Shown here piece after piece: positions 350-38,498 of a stretch of DNA of 48,541 bases. Position 1 is the first letter of the stretch. Each line of letters begins with the position of its first letter. The stretch is from an uncultured Prochlorococcus sp. (GTDB taxonomy: Bacteria > Cyanobacteriota > Cyanobacteriia > PCC-6307 > Cyanobiaceae): NCBI GenBank assembly GCA_902624085.1, contig CACNWD010000006.1, forward strand, positions 1-48,541, read 5' to 3'. A program made the position numbers and the translations under genes. The notes below the pieces were generated by a model that saw only the letters and a program-made list of their open reading frames with translations, was not told the origin of the DNA and ran no database searches.

Positions 350-381
350 GATTTGTGTGTGAGGAGTATGGGGTTTCCCCC
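326..381 (-). ncRNA. yfr1: Yfr1 small regulatory RNA
   Basis: On the minus strand a short 5' hairpin (GGGG-GAAA-CCCC type, 370-381) is followed by an unpaired segment carrying ACTCCTCACAC (357-367). A second GC-rich hairpin with arms GCCCGAT/ATCGGGC (334-349) and a run of eight U follow. This is the architecture of Yfr1, the cyanobacterial functional RNA whose conserved single-stranded CUCCUCAC segment base-pairs near ribosome sites of target mRNAs, for example outer-membrane porins in Prochlorococcus. The position between guaB and trxA is the known location. The 5' end at about 381 is estimated from the TATTAT -10 box at 390-395 and may be off by a few bases. The length of about 56 nt fits the family. 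Confidence 0.93.
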
Positions 382-389
382 ATTTTTTA

Positions 390-9553: not shown

Positions 9554-11029
9554 TTAAGAGTAATTATTATTTTTTGCAGTAGGGTATTGAATCCTTCTAT
9601 GCCTTACTCTTTTCCATACTTTTAAAAAAGATATTTTAATAAGATAAATTTCTCCCCTTGAAAAATTACTATCTAAAAGCTGACCATCTTGTATCCTGGA
9701 GTTTATTATTTTTGAGATGATTTTTAAAGCTTCTTTGTCTGAAGCATTTATATCCATTGCTCTTAGAGCTGCTTCACATCCATCAGCTAGCATTAGGATA
9801 GCTGTCTCTTTTGATTGAGGGATTGGTCCTTTATATTTAAAATTGTTTTCCGAAATATTTTTATCTTTCTCTTTAGCTTTAAATAAAAAGTATCCCATTT
9901 TTAATGTGCCTTGATGTTCTGGAATAAAGTTTGTAACGGGATTTGGAAGTCTATATCTTCTGGCAATCTGTATCCCTTTATCGACATGATCTTGTAAGAT
10001 TTTTGCGCTCTCTAATGGATTATCTAGTTCATCATGCGGATTTTTATTGCCATTTTGATTCTCAATAAACCAATTTGGGGCATGTAACTTCCCAATATCA
10101 TGATATAACGCTCCAGCTCTTACAAGATCAACATTACCACCGATCATTCTTGTGGCTTCTTCTGCTAGCCCACAAAGGAGTAAAGTGTGTTCAAATGTTC
10201 CAGGGGCCTCTATTGAGAGTCTTCTTAATAGTGGTTTCTCTTGATCTGCTAGCTCAAGTAACCTGGCTTTTGTTACTAATCCAAATATTGATTCAAGAAT
10301 TGGCATGAAAATTATAGCCAATAGCATAAGTGTTGCTAATAAAAAAGAATCTGAGACAATATTTCCTTGATTTGAGATTAAATTTTGGATATTTAAATTG
10401 TATAAATCACTATTATTAATTCCTAAAAGTAAATATTGACCGATAAATGCTCCTAGAGGCACGAATATTGATACTTGTAATAATTGTGCTCTACTCCTGA
10501 TCTTTCCACCGAGAATAGCAACTATGCATGATGAAATAAATGTTATGAGTAATAAATATTCATTCATTCCATATCCAGAATTTGGCCAGTTAATTAAAGC
10601 GATTGAAACCCAAGATAATGCTGTAATTGTGCTCATCCCCTGTGCAATTATCAATGTAGGAGTGACAATTATTGATAAGGGACTTATTGTTTTAAAATTA
10701 ACTTTTAGAATCTGTACAATAAGTAAAAGACCAATTAATAAAAAAATTTGCCTTGAATTTATTGCGGGGTTTTCTTTTTTTGAAATATATACAAGAACTC
10801 CTGAGCATATAATGATCTCAAGAAAGTTTATGGTTACTGAGATTATAAAAGGAAAGTTCTGTATTGGCTGAGTGTCTAATTCATATGAAGTAATAATAGA
10901 AATGATTACACAAATAAATAAAATTATAAAGCCATCAATTTTCTTGATATTTGTCAGTTTCTGAGTAGGAGCTTGGCTTTTAATCCATAAATTATTAATT
11001 TTCTTAGTTAGCCTTGTAAGGTTTTGCAC
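9554..11029 (-). CDS. Membrane-anchored HD-domain phosphodiesterase, PgpH/7TMR-HD family
   Basis: The C-terminal cytoplasmic HD domain contains PGTFEHTLLLCGLAEEAT (metal His281), the HD pair His310-Asp311 in LYHDIGKL, and PEHQGT with His372. This is the pattern of PgpH/YqfF enzymes that hydrolyse cyclic di-AMP. The N-terminal half (about 32-255) is a bundle of about seven hydrophobic helices. At 491 residues it is much shorter than typical PgpH (about 700), because the large extracellular 7TMR-HDED sensor domain is absent: only about 13 residues separate the first two helices. c-di-AMP as substrate is inferred from the family and from a c-di-AMP cyclase gene in the same window. The adjacent folD is divergent. 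Confidence 0.85.
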   Translation of the reverse strand: MQNLTRLTKKINNLWIKSQAPTQKLTNIKKIDGFIILFICVIISIITSYELDTQPIQNFPFIISVTINFLEIIICSGVLVYISKKENPAINSRQIFLLIGLLLIVQILKVNFKTISPLSIIVTPTLIIAQGMSTITALSWVSIALINWPNSGYGMNEYLLLITFISSCIVAILGGKIRSRAQLLQVSIFVPLGAFIGQYLLLGINNSDLYNLNIQNLISNQGNIVSDSFLLATLMLLAIIFMPILESIFGLVTKARLLELADQEKPLLRRLSIEAPGTFEHTLLLCGLAEEATRMIGGNVDLVRAGALYHDIGKLHAPNWFIENQNGNKNPHDELDNPLESAKILQDHVDKGIQIARRYRLPNPVTNFIPEHQGTLKMGYFLFKAKEKDKNISENNFKYKGPIPQSKETAILMLADGCEAALRAMDINASDKEALKIISKIINSRIQDGQLLDSNFSRGEIYLIKISFLKVWKRVRHRRIQYPTAKNNNYS

Positions 11030-14796: not shown

Positions 14797-16101
14797 TTAT
14801 TGGTAATTAATACTTTTATAAATTATTGAGGCTATTTTTATAGTTTCTTCAAACAAAGGACTTGTACTACCTCTACTGCTAGCTAATAATTTACTTACAT
14901 CTGCTTCTGATGATAAAAATGAACTTGGAACGACTTCCTCAATCAAATGCATATCTGCCATCCCTCCAGCCTCCAATCTCATGCACTCAGCCGATTCTGA
15001 ACCAAGAATAATGCATGTATTTTTTTTTGGATCCTTACTTACTTTGGATATCAACCTTAAACCGATAACTTGACCTGAATGGATACTTGGATTGCCAACC
15101 GGTAATGGATTAATAGACGTTAAAATCTTTTCTCCATTATTACTTTTAAATCTTACGATAAGTGAATCATCTTTATAAGATGTGTCAAGGAAATTCCAAC
15201 CTAATTTTGCGCTAATCCAAGATATTAAGAATAAAGCTTGAATAATATGATCGCCCTCAATATCTACATCAACTTGTGAGATGTGATCCAGTAAAGTTCT
15301 TCGAAAAGGGGGATCAAATATCATAGCGAGAGATTCTCTCCAGCTTTTAAGTCTCAACCAATTTAAATCATTAATAGATTTTTTATTTATCAATGCATTC
15401 TCAAGGATATTAATACATCTTTTTAATGAACCGTTAGCAGTGTCAATGATTAATCTTTTGCCATTCTTGGTAAAATAGTCAAATATTTTGGGAGAGTCAT
15501 CTAGGCTACTATTCCACCAAAGCCATGAAGGGAGTTCCTGGATGACTAATTCATCGACGATTTCTAAACCTCTCTTTAGTATAGAATTTGCACCACCTCT
15601 AACTACAACAAGATCACCGCAAATAGTCTGATCTTTATTTTCTTCATTAAGTGGGCAATAAGCTGATACGAAAGTTTTAATATCAGAATTATCAGAGAAT
15701 GTTGGTGCGAGAGTTATCAATCTTCTTGGATTAAGAGTACTAATTGATGCCTCAAAAAATTGCCCTCGAAGATCTTCTGAGGAATCATCTCGTACATTAA
15801 CTTTAATTAAATCAAATAAATCTTTGCTGTATAAAGATGTTGCCAAAGGCAATCCATTTTTTAATATTAAATTTTTAGCTGCAATTATGACCTCCTCGCT
15901 TAAATTTCCAGTTATTGGTCCATTTATTAAATTGCTTTTAACTAATCTTTGCTCAAGCCAAGCTGGTTGCCAAACAATTAATGAAAAAGTATTTGCACCT
16001 GCATTATCTTCTCCTTCAGAGATCCATAATTTATTTAAATAATTAGATATTTCTTCTGAGGGAAGTTCTAATGGGGTTTGGAGAGTTAGTTGAGGTTTCA
16101 T
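14797..16101 (-). CDS. opcA: Glucose-6-phosphate dehydrogenase assembly/activator protein OpcA
   Basis: Allosteric partner that promotes oligomerisation and activity of glucose-6-phosphate dehydrogenase in cyanobacteria, linking redox state to the oxidative pentose phosphate pathway. The 434-residue protein has the family's N-terminal helix-rich segment and the conserved RGGANSILKRGLEIVDELV and WWNSSLDDSP regions in the middle. It has no known catalytic motif, as expected. It starts five bases after the zwf stop, the conserved zwf-opcA pairing, which strongly supports the assignment. Confidence 0.94.
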   Translation of the reverse strand: MKPQLTLQTPLELPSEEISNYLNKLWISEGEDNAGANTFSLIVWQPAWLEQRLVKSNLINGPITGNLSEEVIIAAKNLILKNGLPLATSLYSKDLFDLIKVNVRDDSSEDLRGQFFEASISTLNPRRLITLAPTFSDNSDIKTFVSAYCPLNEENKDQTICGDLVVVRGGANSILKRGLEIVDELVIQELPSWLWWNSSLDDSPKIFDYFTKNGKRLIIDTANGSLKRCINILENALINKKSINDLNWLRLKSWRESLAMIFDPPFRRTLLDHISQVDVDIEGDHIIQALFLISWISAKLGWNFLDTSYKDDSLIVRFKSNNGEKILTSINPLPVGNPSIHSGQVIGLRLISKVSKDPKKNTCIILGSESAECMRLEAGGMADMHLIEEVVPSSFLSSEADVSKLLASSRGSTSPLFEETIKIASIIYKSINYQ

Positions 16102-16106
16102 ATGAA

Positions 16107-17630
16107 TCAGGGTCTACGCCAAAAAATATTATCTTTGGAGAGTAATTGGTCAGATTCTGAGGGCCCCCATGTTTTGGATTCATATTTATGAATAGGAAGT
16201 TTCCAGGGAGCGTTTTCCATTAATTCAATAAGAGGGGTATATAATTTCCAGGCAGCTTCAACTTCGTCACTTCTAGTGAATAAAGTAGGATCGCCCAACA
16301 TCGAATCTGCTAATAATCTTACGTAACCTTCATCCGAGGGTTCACCAAAAGATTCATCATAAGAAAATTCCATTTCAACTGGCCTTGATCTCATTCCAGA
16401 GCCTGGAGATTTTACTTCAAATTTAAATGTTGCCCCTTCATTTGGTTGAATTCGTATGATTAATTGATTTGGAGCTGGATTTATTATTGTTGATTCAAAT
16501 AAATGTACAGGTACATCTTTAAAAGTTAAAGCAATTTCACCTAATCTTTTAGGTAACCTCTTGCCTGTTCTTAAATAAAAAGGGACTCCTTGCCATCTCC
16601 AGTTATCTATAAATACTTTGGTAGCGATATACGTTTCTGTTGTGCTATTGGGATCAACTCCTGGCTCCTCGCGATATCCTCTTAAAGGATTAACATCATT
16701 ACCTCCCTTCTGATATTGTCCTCTTATACAACATCGCCAAGGTTCCTCTTCGTCAGCAAGTTTGGTTGCCTGAAGAACTTTAGCTTTTTCATCCCTAATA
16801 GCTTCAGGATCAAATCTACCAGGAGGTTCCATAGAAATAACAGCAAGCATTTGCGTCAAATGATTTTGAAGCATATCTCTAAGAGCTCCTGAGGTTTCGT
16901 AATAACCAGCTCTATCCTCAACTCCCACGGTTTCTGAAGATGTTATTTGTATATTAGAAATATAATTTCTATTCCAAATTGGTTCAAATATTGTATTAGC
17001 AAATCTTAGTACAAGAATATTTTGAACAGTTTCTTTTCCTAAATAATGGTCAATTCTATAAATTTGGCTTTCATCAGCACAACTTTGTACGATTCTATTT
17101 AGCTTTTTAGCACTAGAATAATCTCTGCCAAAAGGTTTTTCTATTACAACCCTACTTTTTGCTGGATCTTCCAATAAACCAGCTTTTTTTAAAGCTTTGC
17201 ATCCACTTCCATAAAAATTTGGTGATACAGATAGATAGAATGTTTTATTTCCATGAGTAGCTTGTAGCTTATCAATATTAATTAATCTTTTAGCTAGCCT
17301 CTCTACATGTAATTCTTGTTGCAGATCTACAGGTTCATAAAATAAATATTTTAAAAACTGCTTCCATTCATTTTCATTTTTAGAGATTTTTTTAGCAAGT
17401 TTTATGCTCATTTTATCTTTAAATTCTTGGTCACTCCATGGTCTTCTCGCGCATCCAATAATTGCAAATTCACTTGGAATTCTTCTTTGAAGAAAAAGTT
17501 CAAACAAAGCTGGTATAAGTTTCCTGTGAGTAAGATCTCCGCTAGCTCCAAAAATTATTAAACATTGGGGTGGAATGACTCTTTCTTGGCGCAAACCAAG
17601 CCTTAATGGGTTGCTTATGGAAGTTTGCAT
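16107..17630 (-). CDS. zwf: Glucose-6-phosphate 1-dehydrogenase
   Basis: Oxidises glucose-6-phosphate with NADP to 6-phosphogluconolactone, the entry of the oxidative pentose phosphate pathway used for NADPH in the dark. The 507-residue product has the nucleotide motif GASGDLTHRKL (near the N-terminus), the active-site RIDHYLGKE segment with its catalytic His nearby, and the C-terminal beta+alpha domain. I chose the ATG at 17630 (product MQTSISNPLRLG...), because homologues begin with the SNPLRxGLRQERVIPP block shortly after Met. An in-frame ATG at 17657 would add nine residues. opcA and cbiA follow with gaps of 5 and 1 bases; petH lies 89 bases upstream on the same strand. Confidence 0.96.
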   Translation of the reverse strand: MQTSISNPLRLGLRQERVIPPQCLIIFGASGDLTHRKLIPALFELFLQRRIPSEFAIIGCARRPWSDQEFKDKMSIKLAKKISKNENEWKQFLKYLFYEPVDLQQELHVERLAKRLINIDKLQATHGNKTFYLSVSPNFYGSGCKALKKAGLLEDPAKSRVVIEKPFGRDYSSAKKLNRIVQSCADESQIYRIDHYLGKETVQNILVLRFANTIFEPIWNRNYISNIQITSSETVGVEDRAGYYETSGALRDMLQNHLTQMLAVISMEPPGRFDPEAIRDEKAKVLQATKLADEEEPWRCCIRGQYQKGGNDVNPLRGYREEPGVDPNSTTETYIATKVFIDNWRWQGVPFYLRTGKRLPKRLGEIALTFKDVPVHLFESTIINPAPNQLIIRIQPNEGATFKFEVKSPGSGMRSRPVEMEFSYDESFGEPSDEGYVRLLADSMLGDPTLFTRSDEVEAAWKLYTPLIELMENAPWKLPIHKYESKTWGPSESDQLLSKDNIFWRRP

Positions 17631-17719
17631 ATTTACGCTGATCTTATTTATGTACAATCATCTATTTTTTTTGCGAATGCTATGTATTGTGTCTAAATCA
17701 AAAATTAAAAAGTTAAGAG

Positions 17720-19889: not shown

Positions 19890-21008
19890 CTAGCCTTTCG
19901 TCAAGTCTTGTTGAGCTTTATTTTGACCTTGCCACACAGGTACTGTGAAATGGAAACATGAACCCTTGCTAAGTTCAGATACCACCCATATTCTGCCTCC
20001 ATGGACTTCCACAATTCTTCTGCATACTGATAGTCCAATACCAAAACCTGAAGTCCCTTCAGAAGTTTGTGGCAGCCTTACTTTATCTAGAAATATTCTT
20101 TCTTGTTCATTTTTTGGTATACCTGGACCTTTGTCACAAATTGTGACTTCAACCCATTGATTAGTTTTATGGATCATTGTTATTTTTATTGATCCTGAGT
20201 CAACAGAAAATTTTAATGCATTTTCAATTAAATTTAAAAAAACTTGTCTCATCCTCCTTTGGTCAGCATAAACACTTGGTAGATCAGAAGGAATATCTGT
20301 ATCAATTACTATTTTTCTTAGTCTCCAAAACTTTTCTAATTCGAGAATTGCTTCCGCTGAAATATTACCCAAATCTATTTTTTGAGGATTGAAAAGAGCT
20401 TCCCATCTTGTCGTCCCTACCTCTAAAAGATCTTGAGATAAAAGTTCAATTTCTTCAAGTCTTCTTTTTATGACTTCTTGTAATTTCTTTAAATTTATTT
20501 GACCAAGTTTTTGGCTTTGGACTGCTAAAGTTGCTGCTGTAAGCGGTGTTCTAAGTTCATGAGCAACCATTCTAAGTAATCTTTCTTGAGACTCTATCCT
20601 TTTTGTCAAGGTTTCATTCTCCTGGCGTAAAACAAGTAATTCATCTTCTAAAAGGATTTCTTTTTGCGTCCTAATACTATCTATTTTGGATGCTTGAATA
20701 TTTATTCCAAGATTTTTGATTAAACCTTCTTGTTTCCATCTTGGGAGCCAAGTTTGAAGTTGTGAAAAAATGTTACTACCAGCAAATATTTGTTTTGGAT
20801 TTGGAGAAATTTTTATTAAAGCCGGAATAGCAACTAATCTATGTAATTCTAAAAGTTCTGGTTGTTCCGTTGGATCTGAAATTTGTAACGATATCTTAAA
20901 TTCGCAATTATCGCTCTCTAAATAATCAACTAGAGACCTTAAATCCCCTCTAGAGAGATGGCTTCTTGCCGCAACTAATATTAATTTTAGCTCTTTTTTA
21001 TCATCCAA
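19890..21008 (-). CDS. sasA: Circadian clock-associated sensor histidine kinase SasA
   Basis: Relays the KaiC phosphorylation state to the response regulator RpaA. The 372-residue protein has an N-terminal thioredoxin-like KaiB-fold sensor domain (about 6-95, including the [21 protein letters not shown] region). A coiled linker and the H-box with phospho-acceptor His150 ([10 protein letters not shown]) follow, then N ([10 protein letters not shown]), G1 (DKGPGIP) and G2 (GFGIGLS) boxes of the HATPase domain. This domain order is diagnostic of SasA. Prochlorococcus lacks kaiA, so SasA would act in a reduced, hourglass-like clock. Its leader contains a hairpin and a CACCTCCTT sequence (see findings). 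Confidence 0.95.
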
Positions 21009-23218: not shown

Positions 23219-23422
23219 GTTATTTATAACTAAAGTTAAAAACTTCATAACTATATAAATATTTCTTTATTTTTATCAATTTATTTTATATTTCAAAATT
23301 TAGTAATACATTTTTATAAAGATGTTCACAAAAATTGTTTACATTTAATCTTTTCGATATTTTAAAAAAAGGGGTATTTAAAAATAAACTTTAGTGTTCT
23401 CTAAAACTATATATTATTGATT

Positions 23423-24940
23423 ATGTTTTTGAATTTTGATCCATTAAAAAGATACTCAGGAATTCTTGTGCATCCATCAAGTCTTCCTGGAGGCAGTTAT
23501 TGCGGAACATTCGGCAATTCTGTAAGAGATTGGATTGAAATATTGTCGATTTGTAAAATTAATACTTGGCAATTTTTGCCTTTATCCCCTACTGATTCAA
23601 TGGGGTCTCCGTATAGTTCTCCATCAAGTTTTGCAATTAATCCTTGGTTCTTAGATTTTGATGAATTAATAAAGAGCAACTATATAAAAGAGTCCCATCA
23701 AGCCAAAATTTTTCAATTAAAATCTGCAAAATTGAATGTTTTTCAATTTAAGGTAGCTGATGAATTATCAAAAATAATTGGAAATCTTTTGATGGATTCA
23801 TGGCATTTATTATCTTTTGATGAGAAAGATAAATTTTATGTTTGGTGTGAAAATAATTCTTGGGTTAATGATTTTTCCGTATTTATGACTCTTAAGGAGA
23901 AATTCGATTTTTCTGCATGGTGGAATTGGCCAGAAGAATTTAAATGCAAAAATAAGCATGCAATTGAAAAATGGGAAAAAAATAATGTTAAACCTATTCT
24001 TAAAATTAAATTAATTCAATGGCATCTAGATAGGCAATGGTTAAAAATAAAAAAATTTGCAGAAATTAAGGGAATAAGATTGATTGGCGATCTACCATTT
24101 TATGTTTCTAAAGATAGTGTGGATGTTTGGAGTGATAAGTCTCTATTCTCGATATCTCCAAATGGAGAATTATATTTTCAAAGTGGAGTTCCGCCAGATT
24201 ACTTTTCTTCAACTGGGCAACTTTGGGGGACACCAGTATATGTATGGGAAAAACATAAAGAAACAGACTTTGAATGGTGGAAAAAAAGATTCAAAAGACA
24301 GTTTGAATTAGTAGATATTTTAAGATTAGATCATTTTCGCGCATTGTCTGGCTATTGGAGGATAGATGGGAAAGCTAAAGATGCAATAAATGGGAATTGG
24401 ATAAATTCTCCTGGTAAAGAGTTGCTAACTTCTTTAAAGGATTCTTTAAATGTTGAAAATTTACCTATCATTGCAGAAGATTTAGGGATAATCAATCAAG
24501 ATGTTACTAATTTAAGGAGACAATTTGGATTGCCTGGAATGAAAATATTGCAATTTGCATTTGATGGTAATGAAGATAATCCTTATTTACCCAAAAATAT
24601 AAACGGTAATAATTGGGTGGTTTATACCGGCACACACGATAACCCCACAACTTTATCTTGGTGGAATGACTTAGACAAAACAATCAAAGAAGGTTTAGAA
24701 AAAGAATTCTCTTTTGCAAATAATCCATCTTGGGAATTGATAGAATTAGGAATGAAAACGAATGCAAATTTATTTATTGCACCTATTCAGGATATTTTAT
24801 GCTTGGATGATTCCAGTAGAATTAATAAGCCTGGGACTACGCAAAATAATTGGAAATGGAAAATTAATTCATCTCTCTCAGAAATCAAACCATTCTTGAG
24901 AATGTATGGTGAACTTGGGAAAAAATACAAAAGATTTTGA
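23423..24940 (+). CDS. malQ: 4-alpha-glucanotransferase (amylomaltase, GH77)
   Basis: Disproportionates malto-oligosaccharides during glycogen breakdown. The 505-residue protein has the GH77 signatures RYSGILVHPSSLPG near the N-terminus, GDLPFYVSKDSVDVW, the nucleophile Asp in LRLDHFRALSGYW, the acid/base Glu in IIAEDLGII, and the third carboxylate in YTGTHDNPTTLSWW. The length is normal. I use the ATG at 23423 rather than an in-frame TTG at 23417. It pairs functionally with the GH57 branching enzyme at 5628-7217. Confidence 0.96.
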   Translation: MFLNFDPLKRYSGILVHPSSLPGGSYCGTFGNSVRDWIEILSICKINTWQFLPLSPTDSMGSPYSSPSSFAINPWFLDFDELIKSNYIKESHQAKIFQLKSAKLNVFQFKVADELSKIIGNLLMDSWHLLSFDEKDKFYVWCENNSWVNDFSVFMTLKEKFDFSAWWNWPEEFKCKNKHAIEKWEKNNVKPILKIKLIQWHLDRQWLKIKKFAEIKGIRLIGDLPFYVSKDSVDVWSDKSLFSISPNGELYFQSGVPPDYFSSTGQLWGTPVYVWEKHKETDFEWWKKRFKRQFELVDILRLDHFRALSGYWRIDGKAKDAINGNWINSPGKELLTSLKDSLNVENLPIIAEDLGIINQDVTNLRRQFGLPGMKILQFAFDGNEDNPYLPKNINGNNWVVYTGTHDNPTTLSWWNDLDKTIKEGLEKEFSFANNPSWELIELGMKTNANLFIAPIQDILCLDDSSRINKPGTTQNNWKWKINSSLSEIKPFLRMYGELGKKYKRF

Positions 24941-25555: not shown

Positions 25556-27214
25556 CTACACGGGAGAAATTATCTTCTTAACTGCATTTTTAGCTAGTTT
25601 CATTGGACTAAATGTTTCCTTAAGTAGAGAGAATAATTTTTCTGCATCTTTCAATTCAATTTTATCATTTTTGATAAGGCTCAATAAAAGGTTTTTTCTT
25701 ACTTCTGATCCCTTTTCTCCAGCAAATAATTTGAGACTTGCGTTTGCAACTGGAATTAAATCAGCATTAATATCTACAGATTCTTTAAAAAGAATATTTA
25801 AAAGACTTTCTAATTTATCAACTTGAATTCTGCCATTCTTATCAAAAATTACTTCAAGTAAAATATCAACAATTTCATCTGAATTATCAGTTAAAAGTTT
25901 CTTCGCGATGTATGGATATGCAATTCGCACAATTTTGAATTCGGGATCTAGTCTAAGAGCTAGGCCTTCCTGGCTTACAACTGCTCTAATTATTAGTGCA
26001 AATCTGCTTGGAACTCTAAAGGGATAATCATACATTAATTGTGAAAATTTATCTGTGATCTCTTTGAAATTAAAATTTCCAACCTCTTTACCAAGAGAAT
26101 CTCCTAAAACTTCTTTTAGAGGATTAACGAGTGACTCAAGATCTTGATCTTCGTTTAAAAAACCTAACTTTTGGAAATCTTTGGCTAATAATAGAAACTC
26201 ATTATTAATAAGATGAACAATAGCTTTAATAAGGGTTAATCTATCAAAATCAGAAATAGAATCCATCATTCCAAAATCTACATAAGCTATATTTCCATTC
26301 TTTTGATCACCACCTCTAAGAGCAAACATATTACCGGGATGAGGATCCGCATGAAAATATCCATGTTCGAAAAGTTGTTGAAGACCACTAATTACTCCTG
26401 TTCTGATAAATGATGATGGTATTAGGTTATTCTGTTCTATTTCATTGCGATCTTTTAATTTGACCCCTTCAATCCAAGATGTAGTGATTACTTTTTGTGA
26501 TGAAAAAGATTTTTCTACTTTTGGAATAATGACTTGAGGATTATTTTTAAATAATATTGCAAATTTCTCTGCATTTTTTGCTTCTTTCTCGTAATTAATT
26601 TCTTCGAACAAAGCCCTGCCAAATTCATCTATTATTTCTCCAATACCGACACCTATATTTAACGGCAAGAAAGGAGCTAAAAAGTTTGCAAGTAATTTTA
26701 AAATGACAATGTCTCTTCTAATAATAAATTCTAAATTTGGCCTTTGTACCTTAACTGCAACATAATAATTATTATTTATTTTGGCTTTATACACTTGCCC
26801 AAGACTTGCTGAAGCTATTGGCTTGTTAGGAAATTCATCAAATAAAATATTTGCTGGAGAACCAAGTTCTTTTTCTACTATTTTTAAAGCAATTTTATGA
26901 TCAAATGGTGGCAAATTATCTTGTAAATTTGTTAGCTCAGTAAGCCAATCTTGTCTAACTAAATCTGGTCTTGTAGATAAGGCTTGCCCAAGTTTTATAT
27001 AACAGGGTCCTAAATCAGTTATTACGTTAAAAAGATATTTTGAAAGATCTTTTTGAACATTTCTATCTTTACTTGCACCTTGAAATATTAATCTTAATAC
27101 AAAGAAAAAAATAGTCAGCAGTATATATATAACTCTTGGGAGTAGAATCCATGGTCTTAATAAAAGCCAAATGAGATTTTTGTAAGGAGTATATTGCATT
27201 TCTAAATCATTCAT
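25556..27214 (-). CDS. ABC1/AarF/UbiB family atypical protein kinase-like protein
   Basis: A 552-residue protein of the UbiB/ADCK family. The N-terminal extension is characteristic (LGPCYIKLGQALSTRPD, about 65-81, the KxGQ motif), the A-rich loop is ASASLGQVYKA (about 133-143), the invariant Lys follows in VAVKVQRP, and the catalytic loop is HADPHPGN with YVDFGMM. Cyanobacterial and plastid members act in prenylquinone or lipid homeostasis. The substrate is unknown. A basic hydrophobic stretch near the N-terminus (about 15-42) may anchor it to the membrane. Confidence 0.93.
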   Translation of the reverse strand: MNDLEMQYTPYKNLIWLLLRPWILLPRVIYILLTIFFFVLRLIFQGASKDRNVQKDLSKYLFNVITDLGPCYIKLGQALSTRPDLVRQDWLTELTNLQDNLPPFDHKIALKIVEKELGSPANILFDEFPNKPIASASLGQVYKAKINNNYYVAVKVQRPNLEFIIRRDIVILKLLANFLAPFLPLNIGVGIGEIIDEFGRALFEEINYEKEAKNAEKFAILFKNNPQVIIPKVEKSFSSQKVITTSWIEGVKLKDRNEIEQNNLIPSSFIRTGVISGLQQLFEHGYFHADPHPGNMFALRGGDQKNGNIAYVDFGMMDSISDFDRLTLIKAIVHLINNEFLLLAKDFQKLGFLNEDQDLESLVNPLKEVLGDSLGKEVGNFNFKEITDKFSQLMYDYPFRVPSRFALIIRAVVSQEGLALRLDPEFKIVRIAYPYIAKKLLTDNSDEIVDILLEVIFDKNGRIQVDKLESLLNILFKESVDINADLIPVANASLKLFAGEKGSEVRKNLLLSLIKNDKIELKDAEKLFSLLKETFSPMKLAKNAVKKIISPV

Positions 27215-27280
27215 TTCATTAACGATAGCGAAAAGAGCAAATAATCTTTACATCAATTCTATAAGAGTCAAAATTACTTT

Positions 27281-28678
27281 ATGAGTATTTCATCTTTTCT
27301 AAGAAAAAAATTTTCAATGCCTCTGTTTTTCCCCTCTCATAGTAGGGGAAAAGCTCTTCCTAAAAAATTAGTTCAATTGTTAAGAGAGGAACCTGGCCTT
27401 TGGGATATTCCTGAATTACCTGAGCTTGGAACTCCTTTGTCTGATTTTGGTTTAATTAAAGATTCTCAAGATTATTTCGCAAAAAAATTTGCTGTTAATA
27501 GTTGCTGGTTTGGAGTAAATGGTGCCTCTGGATTATTACAATCCTCAATTCTATCAATGGCTAACCCAGGGGAATATATATTACTACCAAGGAATATACA
27601 TATTTCTATTATCAAAATTTGTTTAGTAGCCAATATAATTCCCATATTTTTTGATCTGGAGTATTCTGAAATTACTGGTCAATATTTGCCAATAAAAGAA
27701 GCATGGCTTAAAAAAATATTAAAAAGCAATTTACTAAATAATATAAAAATATCAGGAATTGTTTTAGTAAATCCCTATTATCAAGGTTATTCCTGTGAAA
27801 TAAAGCCTTTAGTTGATCTTTGTCATGGATTTGAAATTCCTGTACTTGTAGATGAAGCACATGGTTCTTACTTTTTATTTTGTGAGGATTATGGTTTACC
27901 TAATTCAGCTGTTATGGCGAAAGCAGATTTAGTAGTTCATTCCTTGCATAAGTCATTAAATGGATTAACACAGACCGCGATGTTGTGGCATCATGGAAAC
28001 ATCATAGATAAAAGTAAAATAGCAAAAAAGATTAATTTACTTCAAACTACAAGTCCAAATTCTTTACTTATCGCCTCTTGCGATGAATCTATTAAAGATT
28101 GGTTAGAAAAAGATAGTCTTGAGGAATACAAAAAAAGGATAAAAGAAGCAAGAAATATTTATAAAGAACTTGTTTCTAGAGATGTCCCATTGATAAAAAC
28201 AGATGATCCATTAAAAATTATTTTAAATACCGGTTCTTATGGCATTGATGGTTTTACTGCAGATAAGTTCTTTTATAAAAAAGGAGTAATTTCTGAATTA
28301 CCAGAAATGATGACATTAACTTTTTGTTTAGGATTTGAGGAACAATCAAATTTTATTGATATGTTTGAGAACTTGTGGAAAAGTTTACTTTCATCAATAA
28401 AAGAAAGAAAAGATCTTCAACCAATAAAGCCACCATTTAGTTTAATTCAAATTCCAGAAATACCTCCTTCAGAATCTTTACTAAGAAATTCTCAGAAAGT
28501 AAATCTTAACCAATCAATTGGGAGGATTTCTGCTGATATTATTTGCCCCTATCCTCCTGGAATACCTCTAGCTATTCCTGGGGAAAGGATTGAAAAAGAG
28601 AGAGTTGATTGGTTGATTAACCAAGGATTAAAGGGAGAAAACCTGTTAAATTTTTATATAAACGTACTTATAACTTAA
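27281..28678 (+). CDS. Orn/Lys/Arg decarboxylase family, PLP fold type I
   Basis: A 465-residue PLP enzyme of the short Orn/Lys/Arg decarboxylase group (YaaO/Ldc-like, without the N-terminal response-regulator wing). It has VDEAHGSYF (PLP-binding Asp/His, about 190-198) and the Schiff-base Lys in VHSLHKSLNGLTQTA (about 222-236). The C-terminal part has CPYPPGIPLAIPGE, typical of this family. Substrate (Arg, Lys or Orn) cannot be told from the sequence; polyamine synthesis is the likely role. cdsA follows 10 bases downstream. Confidence 0.88.
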   Translation: MSISSFLRKKFSMPLFFPSHSRGKALPKKLVQLLREEPGLWDIPELPELGTPLSDFGLIKDSQDYFAKKFAVNSCWFGVNGASGLLQSSILSMANPGEYILLPRNIHISIIKICLVANIIPIFFDLEYSEITGQYLPIKEAWLKKILKSNLLNNIKISGIVLVNPYYQGYSCEIKPLVDLCHGFEIPVLVDEAHGSYFLFCEDYGLPNSAVMAKADLVVHSLHKSLNGLTQTAMLWHHGNIIDKSKIAKKINLLQTTSPNSLLIASCDESIKDWLEKDSLEEYKKRIKEARNIYKELVSRDVPLIKTDDPLKIILNTGSYGIDGFTADKFFYKKGVISELPEMMTLTFCLGFEEQSNFIDMFENLWKSLLSSIKERKDLQPIKPPFSLIQIPEIPPSESLLRNSQKVNLNQSIGRISADIICPYPPGIPLAIPGERIEKERVDWLINQGLKGENLLNFYINVLIT

Positions 28679-28688
28679 TGAATATTTT

Positions 28689-29558
28689 ATGAGATTTAAA
28701 AGTGGCTTAATTATTGGTTTATTTGGACTATTAGTGGTGATTCTGGGTGATTTTTATTTTGCTATTGGTATTACAGTTCTAACTTATTTTGCCCTATTGG
28801 AATTATTTAGAATGGCTGAATTTACAGGTATTAAGCCTGCTACAAAAACTACTTTGTTTTCATGCTTCATGCTCATTATCTCAACTTATCTTGAATTAAA
28901 GGGAATAATTGGGGAAGAGATCTCAAATGCAATTTTGCCGATTTCTTCAATTGGTATATGCACATGGTTATTACTTCAGCCAAAGCCAGGAAAAATTTCT
29001 GATATAGCGACTTCTATCTTTGGATTATTTTATTTAGGCTTTCTACCAAGTTATTGGATAAGATTAAGAGAATTAGATTCTATTTTTATAGATTCTAACT
29101 ATCAAGGGAATGGATTCTCTGACTTAGGCTATATTTCTGGATTTAATATAACTTTAATAACATGTTTGATTATTGTTTCTAGTGATATTGGTTCTTATAT
29201 TTTCGGTAAAATTTTTGGAAAAAAATCGCTTTCATCTATATCTCCTAGTAAAACAGTTGAAGGATTAATAGGAGGCATATTTTGCTCCATCGCAACAGGT
29301 ATTTTGTTCACTTATCTATTTAATTGGAATAACTATTTAATTATAGGAATTGTTTTTGGAATAATAATTTCTTTAATGGCTTTAGTAGGAGATTTAATTG
29401 AATCGATGATGAAAAGAGATGCAAAACTCAAAGACTCTGGGAATTTATTGCCAGGTCATGGAGGGATACTTGATAGAATAGATAGTTATATATTTACACC
29501 TTCTTTAATTTATTATGCTATTATCGCACTTGATTTCTTGAGAGTAACAACTAATTGA
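28689..29558 (+). CDS. cdsA: Phosphatidate cytidylyltransferase (CDP-diacylglycerol synthase)
   Basis: Makes CDP-diacylglycerol from phosphatidate and CTP, the precursor of phosphatidylglycerol, which photosystems need. The 289-residue integral membrane protein has about seven to eight hydrophobic helices, the SSDIGSYIFGK and SPSKTVEGLIGG segments, and the family signature LKDSGNLLPGHGGILDRIDS near the C-terminus. It is full length. The last eight bases overlap the 3' end of the convergent DUF2993 gene. Confidence 0.96.
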   Translation: MRFKSGLIIGLFGLLVVILGDFYFAIGITVLTYFALLELFRMAEFTGIKPATKTTLFSCFMLIISTYLELKGIIGEEISNAILPISSIGICTWLLLQPKPGKISDIATSIFGLFYLGFLPSYWIRLRELDSIFIDSNYQGNGFSDLGYISGFNITLITCLIIVSSDIGSYIFGKIFGKKSLSSISPSKTVEGLIGGIFCSIATGILFTYLFNWNNYLIIGIVFGIIISLMALVGDLIESMMKRDAKLKDSGNLLPGHGGILDRIDSYIFTPSLIYYAIIALDFLRVTTN

Positions 29559-30138
29559 ATATAATTTTCGAACCTATTTCAAGTTCGATGTGACGTTCAC
29601 AAAAAAATAAATTTTTTATAATAATATTTTTATCATTGAATATTGATAATTTTTCTTGGTTAATATTATTTACCAATGAAATAGTATTTTTATCAAACTG
29701 CAAAATATAATTAATATTTTTATTAGATAATCCATCAGAGGAAATGAAATATATTGATTTATTATAAATTTCTACACTTTCAAAACTCATTGAAATAAAA
29801 GATTCTATTGAAGTTTTTAAACTTTTCCATTTATTATTAGATAAGGTTTTATTAATATTATCTCTTGTTAATCTCATATTTATTAAAGCATAGGAATTTT
29901 CAATAAAAGATTTTTTATTATTAAAAGCTAATCTAAAAACTAAGTCGCTTAACTTAATATCTATATCACTAATATTAATTTTGTTGAAAATTATACTTTC
30001 TGCTTTTATATATAATTCATCTATTACTCCGCTAAATTTATTATTTTTATTGATTATTAGAATATTCCTAATTATTATTTTTTCGCAAATTATTTTTAAT
30101 AAATTTTCAACTCCTAATCTAATCAATTTAGAAATCAT
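29551..30138 (-). CDS. DUF2993 (LmeA-like) protein
   Basis: A 195-residue protein of the DUF2993 / LmeA phospholipid-binding-protein-like family. It shows alternating short strands (INKNNKFSGVIDELYIKAESIIFN), then SDIDIKLSDLVFRLAFNN and LTRDNINKTL, the pattern seen in cyanobacterial DUF2993 proteins. I chose the ATG at 30138: a longer reading frame to 30216 would overlap the end of the hydrolase gene by 73 bases, while 30138 leaves a normal five-base gap. The gene is exceptionally rich in Asn, Ile and Lys codons. Lipid binding is inference from the family. Confidence 0.75.
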   Translation of the reverse strand: MISKLIRLGVENLLKIICEKIIIRNILIINKNNKFSGVIDELYIKAESIIFNKINISDIDIKLSDLVFRLAFNNKKSFIENSYALINMRLTRDNINKTLSNNKWKSLKTSIESFISMSFESVEIYNKSIYFISSDGLSNKNINYILQFDKNTISLVNNINQEKLSIFNDKNIIIKNLFFCERHIELEIGSKIIFN

Positions 30139-30143
30139 ATTAT

Positions 30144-31043
30144 TTAATTTAGTAAAAAATCTATTATCATCTTTTCGGTAAGTTGCGGCAAATCTAAATG
30201 TGGTAGATGCCCACAATTCTTTAGTCTCACTAAATTTAAATTATTAATTTTTTGGAATTTATTTAATTCATCAACTCCGAGTATCCTATCATCTATTCCA
30301 CAAATTGTTTTAATTTCAATACCATTGAAGTTTTCATAAGTTCCTCCAAAACCTCCACTTTTTGCAAAGCTTGCTAGCGAATTTCTCCATCCTTTACAAC
30401 CTAAATGTATAGAAGCTATTTGTTCTTCAGCAATCCCAACGCTTTGATCAGGTGAAGCAAAAGCTTGTCGACAAAGATTCTTCCTCACTATTGGTAAACC
30501 AAGAAAAGCTGCTCCAATTTGGTTAAAGGGCCTGGGTATTTTTTTTGGTTTTGCAAATAAACCTGCTGGAGATAAAAGTATCATTTTATTTATATCCGTT
30601 TTAATCTTTTTAGTTAAAGAAAACGCAACGGAGCCACCCATTGATGCTCCAACCAAATTAATTTTTTGAGTAATTTTTAGTTTAGATATTATGTCAGTTA
30701 AGTTCATAATTAAATTTTCAGAATTATAATTAAGACTTGATATCCTAGGCGAGAATCCAAAGCCTAATAAATCTGGGATAATTAATTTAAATTTATTTTT
30801 TAATAAAGGATATATTCTTCTGAACTCCAAAAAACTGCTATCAAATCCATGAAGACATAATAAAGGAGGACCTTCTCCTCCAATTACCACTGGAAATTTT
30901 GATAATCCCCATTTTTTTTCTAACTGTATCCAATGTAAATCATCAGCTATGTTTTTCCCTAAAGGATCAATTATAGAATTCTTTAATTTCATTAAATAGC
31001 TGAAATTAGAGCTATTTAAATCTTTATGATTACTTATATTCAA
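30144..31043 (-). CDS. Alpha/beta-fold hydrolase
   Basis: A 299-residue alpha/beta hydrolase with the oxyanion LCLHGFDSSFLEFRR segment (about 63-77), the PDLLGFGFSPR strand-loop, the nucleophile Ser in VGASMGGSV (about 136-144), Asp in GIDDRIL and the catalytic His in GHLPHLD near the C-terminus. The triad looks complete. The substrate is unknown. The gene lies in a tight minus-strand run clpC - gldA-like - hydrolase - DUF2993 with gaps of 14, 6 and 5 bases. Confidence 0.9.
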   Translation of the reverse strand: MNISNHKDLNSSNFSYLMKLKNSIIDPLGKNIADDLHWIQLEKKWGLSKFPVVIGGEGPPLLCLHGFDSSFLEFRRIYPLLKNKFKLIIPDLLGFGFSPRISSLNYNSENLIMNLTDIISKLKITQKINLVGASMGGSVAFSLTKKIKTDINKMILLSPAGLFAKPKKIPRPFNQIGAAFLGLPIVRKNLCRQAFASPDQSVGIAEEQIASIHLGCKGWRNSLASFAKSGGFGGTYENFNGIEIKTICGIDDRILGVDELNKFQKINNLNLVRLKNCGHLPHLDLPQLTEKMIIDFLLN

Positions 31044-31049
31044 AATAAT

Positions 31050-32141
31050 TTAGATAGTTATCTTCAGTGATTCAAATTTTGAGATGACTTGAACAATATC
31101 ATCTTTTGAAAATTCAAAAGGAAGGAAATGTATCTCAGACTCTTTTCTGCATGTAAAAGAAGCTATTTTTTGAAGATTATCATTTTCAAAAACATTAATA
31201 CCAAGTTGTGATATCGTGGTTGGTAAATTTAAGTTCTTCATGAATTTAACTAATTGATTTATAGATTGATTAGCTAATTTATTATTATTTTTACTTTCTT
31301 CTAATCTTAATTGGATCAGGATCCCAACACCCACAATCTCACCATGCAGTGGTCTCTTATTGGAATATATTTGAGTAATTGCATTATGAATAGCATGAGC
31401 TGCGGCAGTTCTACATTTCTCTCCCCCAATGCCTCCAATAAGGCCAGCTGTTAGGGTATTCGCTTCCACAATGTTGCTCCAAGCCAAATTATCTTCTGAT
31501 GGATTATTGTAAGCATCTTCACCCTGAATAAATAATTGGTCTCTTAGAACTCGTGAAATTTGTATGGCCTGTTGAATTATTCCATCTTTGTTTGATGAAC
31601 TTGTGATAGATGATTCATACCATTTTGCTAATGAATCAGCTATGCCACTAGATAATGTTTTTTTAGGAGCTGAATTTATGAAAGAATGATCACAAACTAA
31701 TATATTTGGACAAGATTTAAGTTTTATATCTCTTACAAATTTTCCCTCGGTTGTATAAATATTTCCTAAGGCTGTCCAACCTGCACATGTTGAAGCACTT
31801 AATGGGACCGTAATACATGGTATTGAGAGATAATCTGCTAAGAGCTTCCCTGCATCTAACACTTTCCCACCACCTGCAGTAATAATTGAATCGCATTTCT
31901 GTTCAATGGCAAGATTATAAATTCTTGTTAAATCCTTTTCGCAGCAATCAAATTCTAATTCGGAATTATAAACTTTTAGATTTAATTCTCTCAAATCTCT
32001 GGATATTAGTGATCTTAAAGGCCTTGTTGAAAGACTTCTCCCTAGTAGTAAAGGTGATTTAGAGATCTTTACAATTTCAGGTAAAGATCTTTGCCAAGCA
32101 TTTTTACCTCTAATAACTTTATCAGGAGAGATTATCTGCAT
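31050..32141 (-). CDS. Glycerol dehydrogenase-like iron/zinc alcohol dehydrogenase
   Basis: A 363-residue member of the GldA/glycerol-1-phosphate-dehydrogenase superfamily. The NAD-binding loop is ITAGGGKVLDAGK (about 90-102), followed by PLSASTCAGWTALG. Metal ligands fit Asp in SGIADSLAKW, His in AAAHAIHN and His in RPLHGEIVG. The physiological substrate in cyanobacteria is not established, and glycerol is a family-based guess. It starts 14 bases after the clpC stop. Confidence 0.85.
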   Translation of the reverse strand: MQIISPDKVIRGKNAWQRSLPEIVKISKSPLLLGRSLSTRPLRSLISRDLRELNLKVYNSELEFDCCEKDLTRIYNLAIEQKCDSIITAGGGKVLDAGKLLADYLSIPCITVPLSASTCAGWTALGNIYTTEGKFVRDIKLKSCPNILVCDHSFINSAPKKTLSSGIADSLAKWYESSITSSSNKDGIIQQAIQISRVLRDQLFIQGEDAYNNPSEDNLAWSNIVEANTLTAGLIGGIGGEKCRTAAAHAIHNAITQIYSNKRPLHGEIVGVGILIQLRLEESKNNNKLANQSINQLVKFMKNLNLPTTISQLGINVFENDNLQKIASFTCRKESEIHFLPFEFSKDDIVQVISKFESLKITI

Positions 32142-35303: not shown

Positions 35304-35381
35304 GATTTTTGATACCCAAAAATAAAAAAAGTTTTTCTTAATTGATAAACTTATATAATGTTGCTGATAAAAGGATTAAAA

Positions 35382-36749
35382 ATGAAAGAAAAGTCATTTA
35401 TTAACAATAAAATCGATTTTGAAAGTCCAAATAAAAATATTGTACCTTTAACTACCTCAATTAATAATGGCAAGCTATTCCTTGGAGGATGTTCAGTAGA
35501 ACAGCTTATAAAAAATTATGATTCACCGTTATATATTTTAGATGAATTGACTCTGAGAAATTCTTGTAAAGCATATAAAAATGCACTCGATAAATTTTAC
35601 CCTGGAAATTCCCTTCCTATATATGCATCTAAAGCCAATAGTTCTTTATTTATGAGTAATTTGATATCTTCGGAGGGATTTGGACTAGATGCTGTTTCTG
35701 AAGGTGAATTATTAACAGCTCTCAAGGGTGGAGTCTCTTATGAAAAAATTGTTTTTCATGGTAATAATAAATCTGATAAAGAATTAGAGTTTGCGGTGAC
35801 AAATAAAATTAAAGTGGTTGTAGATAATAATTATGATTTGGAGAGGATGATTAGTTATTCAGAAGTGTTGGATAGAAGTATCAAAATAATGATCAGATTC
35901 ACACCTGGAATAGAATGTCATACCCATGAATATATTAGAACTGGTTCTTTTGATAGTAAATTTGGATTTGGCTTGGAAAATTTAACTTATGTTTTTGAAG
36001 AGATTAATAAAGCCAAAAACTTAGATTTAGTGGGTTTACATGCTCATATAGGTTCTCAAATTTTTGAATTAGAACCTCATCGTGATCTAGGAGAAATATT
36101 AGTCAATTTTGCAATTGAAGCTCAAAAATATGGTCATCAAATAAAGGAATTAAATGTTGGAGGAGGTTTAGGAATTAAATATACAAATGACGATGATCCT
36201 CCTTCAATAGAGGACTGGGTTAAAACCGTATCAGAATCAGTTTCAAAAGCATGTACTAAAAATAATTTTGAATTACCATTACTTATGTGTGAACCTGGTC
36301 GATCAATAGTTTCAACTGCAGGAGTAACTATATACAAAATAGGATCATTTAAAGAGATTCCTGGATTAAAAACATATATTTCTGTTGATGGTGGGATGAG
36401 TGATAATCCAAGACCAATTACATATCAGTCAAATTATTCCGCTTGTTTAGTCAATGATCCGCTTAATAAAAACCATAAAAATAAATATACAATAGCTGGA
36501 AAGCATTGTGAGTCTGGAGATGTTTTATTTAAAGAAATTGAGATTGGAAGCTGTAAAACTGGAGATTTATTATGTGTTTTTGGAACTGGAGCTTATAATC
36601 TCTCAATGAGTTCAAACTACAATAGAATTCCAAGGCCTGCTGCATTGTTAGTTTCAAATGGGAACGCTGAATTAATTCAAAAAAGAGAAACATCAGATGA
36701 TCTACTAAAGCTTGATGTCTTACCAGATCGCTTTATTAAACAATCTTAG
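35382..36749 (+). CDS. lysA: Diaminopimelate decarboxylase
   Basis: Decarboxylates meso-diaminopimelate to lysine with PLP; DAP is also a peptidoglycan precursor. The 455-residue alanine-racemase-fold enzyme has the PLP Lys in YASKANSS, FHGNNKSD, HAHIGSQI, GGGLGIKY, EPGRS and the C-terminal CESGD and GAYN motifs. I chose the ATG at 35382 because AAAGGA (about 35369-35374) lies eight bases upstream; an in-frame ATG at 35358 adds eight residues without a ribosome site. It begins a plus-strand run through cdaA, uppS, bioB, trhO and an unknown gene. Confidence 0.95.
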   Translation: MKEKSFINNKIDFESPNKNIVPLTTSINNGKLFLGGCSVEQLIKNYDSPLYILDELTLRNSCKAYKNALDKFYPGNSLPIYASKANSSLFMSNLISSEGFGLDAVSEGELLTALKGGVSYEKIVFHGNNKSDKELEFAVTNKIKVVVDNNYDLERMISYSEVLDRSIKIMIRFTPGIECHTHEYIRTGSFDSKFGFGLENLTYVFEEINKAKNLDLVGLHAHIGSQIFELEPHRDLGEILVNFAIEAQKYGHQIKELNVGGGLGIKYTNDDDPPSIEDWVKTVSESVSKACTKNNFELPLLMCEPGRSIVSTAGVTIYKIGSFKEIPGLKTYISVDGGMSDNPRPITYQSNYSACLVNDPLNKNHKNKYTIAGKHCESGDVLFKEIEIGSCKTGDLLCVFGTGAYNLSMSSNYNRIPRPAALLVSNGNAELIQKRETSDDLLKLDVLPDRFIKQS

Positions 36750-36779: not shown

Positions 36780-37667
36780 GTGAGTTTTTGGGGTTTTTTA
36801 AATTTAAAACTTTTACTCGATGTCCTTTTCGCAGCAGGTTTCGGAATGTTGCTTTTCTCACGAGTCAAAGAGCAAAGAACTTTATGGCTTCTTAGAGGAT
36901 ATTTATTTTTGGTATCTCTAGCTTGGTTTGTCCAGAGATTTGCTTCGCTACCCTTAACTTCAAAGTTAATTGACGCCTTGGTCATAGCATGTTCTTTATC
37001 TCTTGCAATTTTGTGGCAAGGAGAACTTAGGAGATTAATGGAATTATTAGGTACAGGAAGATTAACGGTCCTTTTAGGTAATCCTCCCAAGGAATTTAGA
37101 GCTAATTCAAATGCGGTGAATCAGCTCGTAGATGCAGCTGGAAAACTTTCTCAAAACAGAAGAGGAGCTCTTATGGTTGTTGATTTGGGAAGTGATTTAA
37201 GACCAGAAGATTTTTTATATTCAGGAATAGAAATAGATGCACTGCTTTCTACAGATCTGTTGATAAATTTATTTGCTACGGATACGCCTTTGCACGATGG
37301 TGCTATTTTAGTTAAAGGTAATAAAATTATTTCTGCAGGCGTAATACTTCCTTTATCTCGTCAAGGTATTAGTAGATATGGAACTAGACATTTGGCTGCT
37401 TTAGGCATTACTGAAAGATTTGATAGATGCATTTGCATTGTCGTCTCAGAAGAGACAGGAACATTATCACTTGCTAATCAAGGAAAACTTGAAAGACCTA
37501 TCACAAGTAGTAGATTACAAGAGTTATTGAATGAGTTTATTGGAGGATTAAATAATCAAACCATTTCAAAATCTTCTACAAATAGAAATGTTTCAATGCC
37601 AAAAAAGGAGACAATTGATATCATTTCAAGTATTGGTGTAGATAAATCTGTAAAAAATTCTGATTAA
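36780..37667 (+). CDS. cdaA: Diadenylate cyclase (CdaA/DacA family)
   Basis: Makes cyclic di-AMP from two ATP. The 295-residue protein has about three N-terminal membrane helices (about 10-27, 38-52, 62-80) and a DAC domain with the DGA motif (173-175), the RHLAA variant of RHR (203-207) and SEETG (223-227), all the active-site elements of CdaA. The start is a GTG at 36780 overlapping an out-of-frame ATGTGA; no good ribosome site is seen, and expression may depend on coupling to lysA, 30 bases upstream. In Firmicutes cdaA neighbours glmM; here lysA and uppS flank it. A Lys/Ser-rich tail of about 40 residues follows the domain. Confidence 0.92.
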   Translation: MSFWGFLNLKLLLDVLFAAGFGMLLFSRVKEQRTLWLLRGYLFLVSLAWFVQRFASLPLTSKLIDALVIACSLSLAILWQGELRRLMELLGTGRLTVLLGNPPKEFRANSNAVNQLVDAAGKLSQNRRGALMVVDLGSDLRPEDFLYSGIEIDALLSTDLLINLFATDTPLHDGAILVKGNKIISAGVILPLSRQGISRYGTRHLAALGITERFDRCICIVVSEETGTLSLANQGKLERPITSSRLQELLNEFIGGLNNQTISKSSTNRNVSMPKKETIDIISSIGVDKSVKNSD

Positions 37668-37688: not shown

Positions 37689-38498
37689 ATGAAATTAAAA
37701 AATTCAACAAATAAAATAAGAGATTTATCTCTAGAAATTGATAAACTCAGAATCCCTAATCACATAGCTGTAATAATGGATGGTAATGGTAGATGGGGAC
37801 TAAATAAAGGTTTGTCAAGATCACATGGTCATAATAAAGGTGTGTCAGTTTTAAAAAATATAATTAAAGTTTCCAAAAAACTTGGTGTAAAAGTTTTAAC
37901 TGTTTATGCTTTTTCAACTGAGAATTGGACAAGACCACTTGAAGAGGTGAAATTTCTTTTAAATTTATTCGAAAAAGTTTTAGAAAAAGAGATTGATGAA
38001 TTGAATAAAGAGTTAATTAGAATCAAATTTATTGGTGACTTATCTCCTTTCTCTGAAGATTTAAGAAAAAAATTTATTGAGGCTGAAAATATTACTCATT
38101 GTAATGATCAATTTATTTTAAATATCTGCACAAATTATGGGGGGAGGCAGGAATTGGTAAAAGTTGCAAAAGAATTATCGAGGAAGTCAATCTCAGGAGA
38201 AATCAAACCTGATCAAATAAATGAAGAAATGTTCGAATCTCATTTGCTTACATGTGATTTTCAAGATCCTGACTTGTTAATAAGAACTAGCGGTGAAAAA
38301 CGCATAAGTAATTTTTTACTTTGGCAACTTGCTTATTCTGAAATTTACATAACTGATGTTTTATGGCCTGAATTTGATGAGAATGAATTTTATAAAGCTA
38401 TTATTGATTACCAATCAAGGAAAAGAAGATTTGGTGGAATTACATCAGTCTCAAATCAATCTTTAAAAAGTTCTTTTCTTATGGGTAATACAAAATGA
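37689..38498 (+). CDS. uppS: Isoprenyl transferase (undecaprenyl diphosphate synthase)
   Basis: Cis-prenyltransferase that makes the C55 lipid carrier for peptidoglycan and O-antigen. The 269-residue protein has [13 protein letters not shown] with catalytic Asp31, the SHGHNKG segment, [10 protein letters not shown] (about 77-86) and the signature [20 protein letters not shown]. The length and motif order are canonical. The stop overlaps the bioB start by four bases (ATGA). Confidence 0.96.

Follow-up and report, generated by a model that had tools for sequence, protein, structure and literature searches.

Cyclases of the CdaA type and phosphodiesterases resembling PgpH, which make and degrade cyclic di-AMP (c-di-AMP), were described as a pair in cyanobacteria in 2018, together with a lysA-cdaA-uppS operon (PMC5986932, PMC5897029), and lysA and uppS have been tied to cell-wall synthesis (PMC5986932). 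c-di-AMP itself has been measured in Synechococcus elongatus, Synechocystis, Fremyella, and Anabaena (PMC5897029, PMC5986932). The diadenylate cyclase (DAC) domain is recognized by its DGA and RHR motifs, D171GA and R203HR in Bacillus subtilis CdaA (PMC8573169). Published work regards RHR as indispensable on triple-mutant evidence: three different DACs were inactivated when RHR was changed to AAA (PMC3328451, PMC13022847, PMC4568413). On the degrading side, PgpH combines membrane helices and an HD domain with a 7TMR-HDED domain that is extracellular (PMC12072042); the role of 7TMR-HDED has been called unknown (PMC10243994). When the Synechocystis homologue was overexpressed, c-di-AMP fell below detection in salt and, in plain medium, stood on average at half of the wild-type level, a difference that was not significant (PMC5986932). 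As for receptors, a c-di-AMP pull-down from Synechocystis enriched SbtB, KtrA, TrkA, and MthK (PMC10117731). Here we describe how the corresponding genes of a marine picocyanobacterium compare with these systems.

Results

A CdaA-type cyclase in a Prochlorococcus genome

The window, by which we mean the whole 48,541-nucleotide stretch of DNA analyzed, is one contig (G000:C6) of a 1.06-Mb genome that is 67.7% complete. Its CdaA is 99% identical to the cyclase of Prochlorococcus marinus bv. HNLC1, and the organism is therefore a Prochlorococcus. As MIT 9201, MIT 9314, HNLC1, and HNLC2 are among the named relatives of the cyclase, we take it to belong to the high-light lineage.

An earlier note on this DNA had placed cdaA in the window, and the gene is confirmed by its open reading frame, the CdaA equivalog model (NCBIfam TIGR00159; 204.2 bits against a cut-off of 188.8), the DAC domain (Pfam PF02457; 115.9 bits), and its fold. 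A fold model of the DAC domain matched solved CdaA structures with Z scores of about 25, the best at 25.8 with an rmsd of 1.7 over 151 aligned residues. The N-terminal membrane domain CdaA_N (PF19293) barely passed its threshold, at 24.3 bits against 23.8. By sequence family and fold, and in view of the RHR change described below, we file the protein as a CdaA-type variant of putative catalytic competence. The features of the locus are collected in Table 1.

Table 1. Features of the window discussed in the text, with the evidence for each
Feature	Positions	Strand	Details and evidence
Glucan branching enzyme-like gene	5628-7217		below the cut-offs of its models
PgpH-type c-di-AMP phosphodiesterase (putative)	9554-11029	-	491 aa, GTG start; N-terminal helix, 7TM-7TMR_HD, HD
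HD metal motif of phosphodiesterase	10097-10102	-	residues 310-311; sequence read
Approximate deletion junction in phosphodiesterase	10862-10867	-	after residue 55, ~208 residues missing relative to a longer relative; pairwise alignment
OpcA-like gene	14797-16101	-	adjoins zwf; 108 bits, well below the OpcA cut-off of 256
zwf	16107-17657		profile match
Histidine kinase (NCBIfam PRK09303)	19890-21008	-	553.6 bits, cut-off 342
4-alpha-glucanotransferase	23417-24940		profile match
lysA (diaminopimelate decarboxylase)	35358-36749	+	conserved upstream partner of cdaA; profile match, conserved order
cdaA, membrane-bound diadenylate cyclase (CdaA type)	36780-37667	+	295 aa, GTG start; profile and fold matches
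DGA motif of DAC domain	37296-37304	+	residues 173-175, intact; sequence read
RHL replacing the signature RHR	37386-37394	+	residues 203-205, third Arg replaced by Leu; sequence read, alignment
uppS (undecaprenyl diphosphate synthase)	37689-38498	+	conserved downstream partner of cdaA; profile match, conserved order

The check for further DAC genes proposed in the earlier note was run on the window's 67.7%-complete genome, and cdaA is the sole DAC match in it. A DAC domain is present in 194 of 196 high-quality genomes of the window's family. A viral copy of cdaA was also sought: 49 candidate stretches in viral contigs were checked, and no relative is encoded in any of them. None of 101 family genomes matched YbbR/CdaR; among the controls, 4 of 14 matched and that of S. 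elongatus did not. Around cdaA, a promoter and terminator scan returned sites no more often than in shuffled sequence. An RNA scan of the window found no c-di-AMP riboswitch at threshold, which only tRNA and the cyanobacterial small RNA Yfr1 reached; Yfr1 (331-383, minus strand) adjoins a GuaB3 gene at 438-1601.

Leucine replaces the third residue of RHR throughout the family

The cyclase had been credited with all DAC-domain motifs. DGA and SEETG are indeed present, but RHR reads RHL, with Leu in place of the third Arg at position 205. This residue is Leu in 128/128 CdaA records of the window's family (the window, 47 whole-genome records assigned by family label, and 80 named records assigned by name and similarity) and Arg in 50/50 records from other families of the class; one genome is counted twice on each side (G002, G433), named records may duplicate species of the whole-genome set, and the f15 group, which has the weakest DAC scores, was left out of this reading. 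By the listing counts, 22 of the family's 59 genus labels are represented among the whole-genome records, and 24 families among the non-family records. Outside the cyanobacteria, RHR stands in all DACs compared, through five plus two PDB alignments.

Further positions separate the two groups. Tyr occupies position 200 in 125 of the 128 family records and in none of the 50 others, and Asp (for Glu) at 135, Asn (for Thr) at 163, and Thr at 228 are each found in 128/128 family records; apart from position 205, the group-separating changes are mostly mild. In an alignment of 38 sequences, a DAC loop is one residue shorter in 13 of 14 family rows and in 0 of 24 other rows. The same alignment is invariant at H77-D78-G79-A80, R108-H109, and S128-E-E-T-G, and T107 is present in at least 90% of the rows (numbering of the 174-residue construct).

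Exceptions were sought in 300 family genomes as DNA able to encode GTRHRAA, with a pattern that also allows Ser for either Arg. It matched 31 times, in 28 of the 300 genomes. Reversing the pattern as a control still gave matches in about 21 genomes, and no LHDGA frame is present in the 24 loci examined (4 + 20, with G023 twice), which cover 23 of the 31 matches; the matches therefore look like chance. On the same 24 loci, we rejected a hidden RHR cyclase in the family. In the open-licence literature, we found no mention of RHL and no published test of a single change of the third Arg of RHR.

The cyclase is under constraint and keeps three of four residues that contact an ATP analogue in DacA

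In Staphylococcus aureus DacA, an ATP analogue is contacted by the Asp and Gly of DGA, by the Thr before RHR, and by a stacking Tyr (PMC6368335). The Asp, Gly, and Thr are all kept in the window's CdaA. In the PDB alignments, the position of the stacking Tyr holds a non-aromatic residue; DisA and CdaS lack this Tyr too (PMC6368335). Because the Asp, Gly, and Thr contacts persist, the most likely effect of RHL is to adjust the rate or the dimer rather than to abolish activity.

In Prochlorococcus, purifying selection on the DAC stretch is strong, with a median dN/dS of about 0.012 (range 0 to 0.074) over the 1884 of 3240 pairs that show moderate synonymous difference. Given this low dN/dS, the intact remaining motifs, and the retention of the phosphodiesterase described below, we favor the reading of the window's CdaA as a putatively active cyclase.

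The HD protein is of the PgpH type

The HD protein that had been singled out as the degrading partner is a PgpH-type phosphodiesterase by its 7TM-7TMR_HD and HD domains and by its match to Listeria Lmo1466 (PgpH; 4s1b), which covers the whole HD domain at E 4e-47; hydrolysis is predicted. The 7TM-7TMR_HD domain (PF07698) occurs in 98 of 100 high-quality genomes of the family. All 61 cyanobacterial sequences compared keep the HD-site residues His, His-Asp, His, His, and Asp, which, Asp648 aside, we presume to serve as metal ligands. For Asp648 of PgpH, the ligand role has been reported (PMC12072042). After the fourth His, the same 61 sequences all have Gln (EHQGT), at a position taken in Listeria PgpH by the second His of HHGT. 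Decay of the active site was considered on this account and rejected, as the substitution is class-wide and not local. We call the enzyme a PgpH-type domain-loss variant with putative c-di-AMP hydrolysis.

Across the class, a DAC match without a 7TM-7TMR_HD match was seen in 16 of 116 genomes, 14 of them in groups f15 and f24 (for example G313 and G325); the DAC loci L222-L224, L234, and L235 belong to f24.

The phosphodiesterase of the genus has lost its extracellular domain

A Pfam scan of the window's phosphodiesterase found 7TM-7TMR_HD and HD only; 7TMR-HDED was not found. A complete relative from the same genus likewise has these two domains alone, whereas two longer relatives from other genera add 7TMR-HDED, a difference that the earlier note had overlooked. 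About 208 residues are absent right after the first helix, as one gap relative to L146 and as two gaps of 90 and 118 relative to L150; against L152, the local alignment printed has no gap above 5. These gaps were taken from pairwise alignments, as the N-terminal part was wrongly placed when the phosphodiesterases were aligned with MAFFT.

When search rows for 300 family genomes were combined with genus labels, 7TMR-HDED (PF07697) was found in 0 of 24 genomes of the window's genus versus 246 of 276 other family genomes, and among high-quality genomes in 0 of 23 versus 168 of 173. The 30 other family genomes that also give no match include many incomplete ones and 5 of the 173 high-quality ones. 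The length of the frame separates the groups in the same way: it runs to 493-506 codons in 8/8 genomes of the genus and to at least 598 in the 91 other matched genomes, the 598-codon frame lying near a contig end.

It is scarcely credible that the short protein is an artefact of annotation or assembly, with the extracellular domain encoded elsewhere or upstream: the window's genome is just 68% complete, but the gene retains its N-terminal helix and the deletion is internal, a FolD-type gene on the opposite strand starts 75 bases upstream, and the domain is likewise missing from 23 genomes of the genus with 99-100% completeness, in keeping with the uniform frame length.

In the control genome of Thermotoga maritima, PF07698 matched and PF07697 did not. 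Domain-less forms may therefore exist elsewhere, and PgpH-like proteins with no recognizable extracellular domain may not be unique to the window's genus. The open-licence literature yielded no mention of a loss of 7TMR-HDED.

Gene order and neighborhood

The order lysA-cdaA-uppS was found in 30/30 family loci and in 28 of 30 loci from other families. Of 80 named Prochlorococcus loci, those with enough flank have uppS (77/77) and lysA (78/78) beside cdaA. The central proposal of the earlier note, that cyclase and phosphodiesterase occur together in one window, is correct insofar as both genes lie within it, but they are 26 kb apart and on opposite strands. Complete genomes of the genus, G152 and G095 among them, repeat this orientation and a spacing of about 26 kb, so the nearness is inherited gene order, not a gene pair. 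Opposite strands with a spacing of 26-45 kb were seen in several complete family genomes (for example G152, G095, G010, and G034), though not in all (G062, for one, differs). With the pair and the operon already published and the order conserved here too, the enzyme pair and its gene order are known for cyanobacteria and hence ordinary.

The note had also linked the circuit to dark-metabolism genes nearby and to night survival. Such genes are in the window (Table 1), among them a kinase matching PRK09303, which we take to be the clock output kinase SasA, and they fit a dark-metabolism theme loosely. Their nearness is weak evidence: some 12 to 30 kb separate them from cdaA, which has lysA and uppS as its conserved partners. 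A night role of c-di-AMP has been shown in S. elongatus (PMC5897029) and not in the window's lineage.

Candidate receptors

Receptors of the expected kinds are present as candidate binders. All 101 genomes examined from the family contain TrkA_C (RCK_C) domains. In the window's own genome, a KtrA protein (TrkA_N + TrkA_C) adjoins a TrkH-type (KtrB-type) gene, the frame of which is cut by the end of the locus. This KtrA matches KtrC (6i8v) at E 5.5e-35, and its residues 154-230 match structure 4xtt, presumably a c-di-AMP-related RCK_C structure, at E 4.8e-6. At G000:C5 ~25869-32117 (L254, L262), the TrkH-type and KtrA genes lie near a citrate-transporter-like protein with two RCK_C domains, and KtrA and such a protein are close together in G095 and G152 as well. 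Complete relatives have in addition an ion-channel protein with TrkA_N + TrkA_C (L260).

A short PII-like protein of 93-96 aa stands directly beside a 333-codon frame at L272 and L274-L276. In L274, this frame was scanned as an SbtA-type bicarbonate transporter. By genome, the PII-like protein adjoins an SbtA gene in the relative G095 and a frame of the same length in G056, G010, and G152. Sequence matches of the PII-like protein to SbtB structures are weak (E 0.047 and 0.049). The receptor search suggested in the earlier note gave an RCK_C candidate, KtrA, in the window's genome; the SbtB-like candidate was seen only in relatives, the sole PII match in the window's own incomplete genome being GlnB-like.

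Discussion

A probable pared-down circuit and its alternatives

We consider it probable that this locus belongs to a working but pared-down c-di-AMP circuit of a Prochlorococcus type, with a predicted activity in potassium and osmotic control. The complete minimal circuit that the earlier note envisaged is borne out in that a cyclase, a phosphodiesterase, and a candidate receptor (KtrA) are present, the two enzymes family-wide; the reservation is RHL for RHR. From the genes, residues, and domain loss observed, and from their distribution, we infer the activity, rate, regulation, and receptors of such a circuit as follows. CdaA would make c-di-AMP from ATP at the membrane, from within a cluster of cell-wall precursor genes, using a DAC site that is a family-wide variant with Leu as the third residue of RHR. 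The PgpH-type enzyme would degrade it through a bare HD domain carried on membrane helices. With the extracellular domain removed in the window's genus, the enzyme would lose its response to the cue detected there, and would be expected to serve as a sink that is either constant or regulated from within. By analogy with Synechocystis, c-di-AMP would act on potassium uptake of the KtrA type and, in relatives, perhaps also on the RCK_C-domain channel and the SbtA-linked PII protein.

A broader claim, which we advance only tentatively, is that the marine picocyanobacterial family carries an altered DAC site (RHL and a remodelled loop) that has either relaxed or slowed synthesis or gone with abandonment of synthesis and retention of the protein, to which the genus would have added a phosphodiesterase with no outside domain.

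It is unlikely, in our judgement, that the picocyanobacterial CdaA is dead or nearly so and is kept as a scaffold beside LysA and UppS or as an ATP sensor. Loss of a signature residue in every one of the family records, the inactivity of the three AAA mutants, and the conserved cell-wall gene neighborhood would all suit such a protein. However, the other motif positions show little or no variation, the DAC domain is under very strong purifying selection, and the phosphodiesterase, which would have no substrate of its own without the cyclase, is kept in nearly all high-quality family genomes. Counting against a working circuit, besides the AAA mutants, the Gln in the HD site, and the mixed overexpression result in Synechocystis, is that in the open-licence literature we found no measurement of c-di-AMP or of enzyme activity in any member of the window's family, outside which we take S. 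elongatus, Synechocystis, Fremyella, and Anabaena to lie.

Altered chemistry, in the sense of another cyclic dinucleotide or of c-di-AMP under other control with the whole circuit retuned, strikes us as quite improbable. The family-specific residues at positions 200, 135, 163, and 228 and the shortened loop accompany Leu205, as such a shift might lead one to expect, but the phosphodiesterase site is unchanged at the same branch, its His-to-Gln replacement being class-wide, and a KtrA-type candidate receptor is kept. Moreover, we know of no adenine-reading residue that changes along with Leu205, which also counts against it. Slightly less probable again is that the HD protein hydrolyzes another nucleotide and that c-di-AMP is really degraded by a DHH-DHHA1 protein. 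In favor of this, RecJ has been put forward for S. elongatus as an enzyme that may act as a non-specific phosphodiesterase (PMC5897029). Against this, the PgpH match spans the whole HD domain, and overexpression of the Synechocystis homologue made c-di-AMP undetectable in salt, with no significant drop in plain medium (PMC5986932).

The working, pared-down circuit is thus the reading that we carry forward. The presence of the enzyme pair is no news; it is the two sequence changes, RHL and the domain loss, that bear on motif and domain function. If synthesis is relaxed or slowed, the third Arg of the signature motif would be dispensable, in a group that ranks among the most abundant photosynthetic ones. 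Fixed in a family of ocean phototrophs, the natural single change offers a ready test of the role of the third Arg and also bears on whether Prochlorococcus and its relatives make c-di-AMP at all. The removal of a domain at the level of a genus provides a matched pair, with and without 7TMR-HDED, for asking what that domain senses.

Comparison with known systems

Compared with the CdaA/DacA cyclases of B. subtilis, Listeria monocytogenes, S. aureus, and S. elongatus (Synpcc7942_0263), the window's CdaA is alike in its membrane and DAC domains, its DGA and SEETG motifs, and its fold, and differs in having RHL where RHR stands. The family also differs from these systems in giving no YbbR/CdaR match in 101/101 genomes, although the S. 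elongatus control is likewise unmatched. The neighbors of cdaA are lysA and uppS in the window and ybbR and glmM in S. aureus (PMC6368335).

The phosphodiesterase shares 7TM-7TMR_HD and an HD domain with the same metal ligands with PgpH (Lmo1466 of L. monocytogenes) and with the cyanobacterial homologues slr0104 and Synpcc7942_0779. It departs from PgpH in the absence of 7TMR-HDED, a trait of the window's genus, and in the Gln after the fourth His, a trait common to the 61 cyanobacterial sequences. Like KtrA/KtrC, the candidate receptor of the window's genome is a TrkA_N + TrkA_C protein next to a TrkH-type gene, with putative c-di-AMP binding; what sets it apart is the citrate-transporter-like protein with two RCK_C domains encoded nearby.
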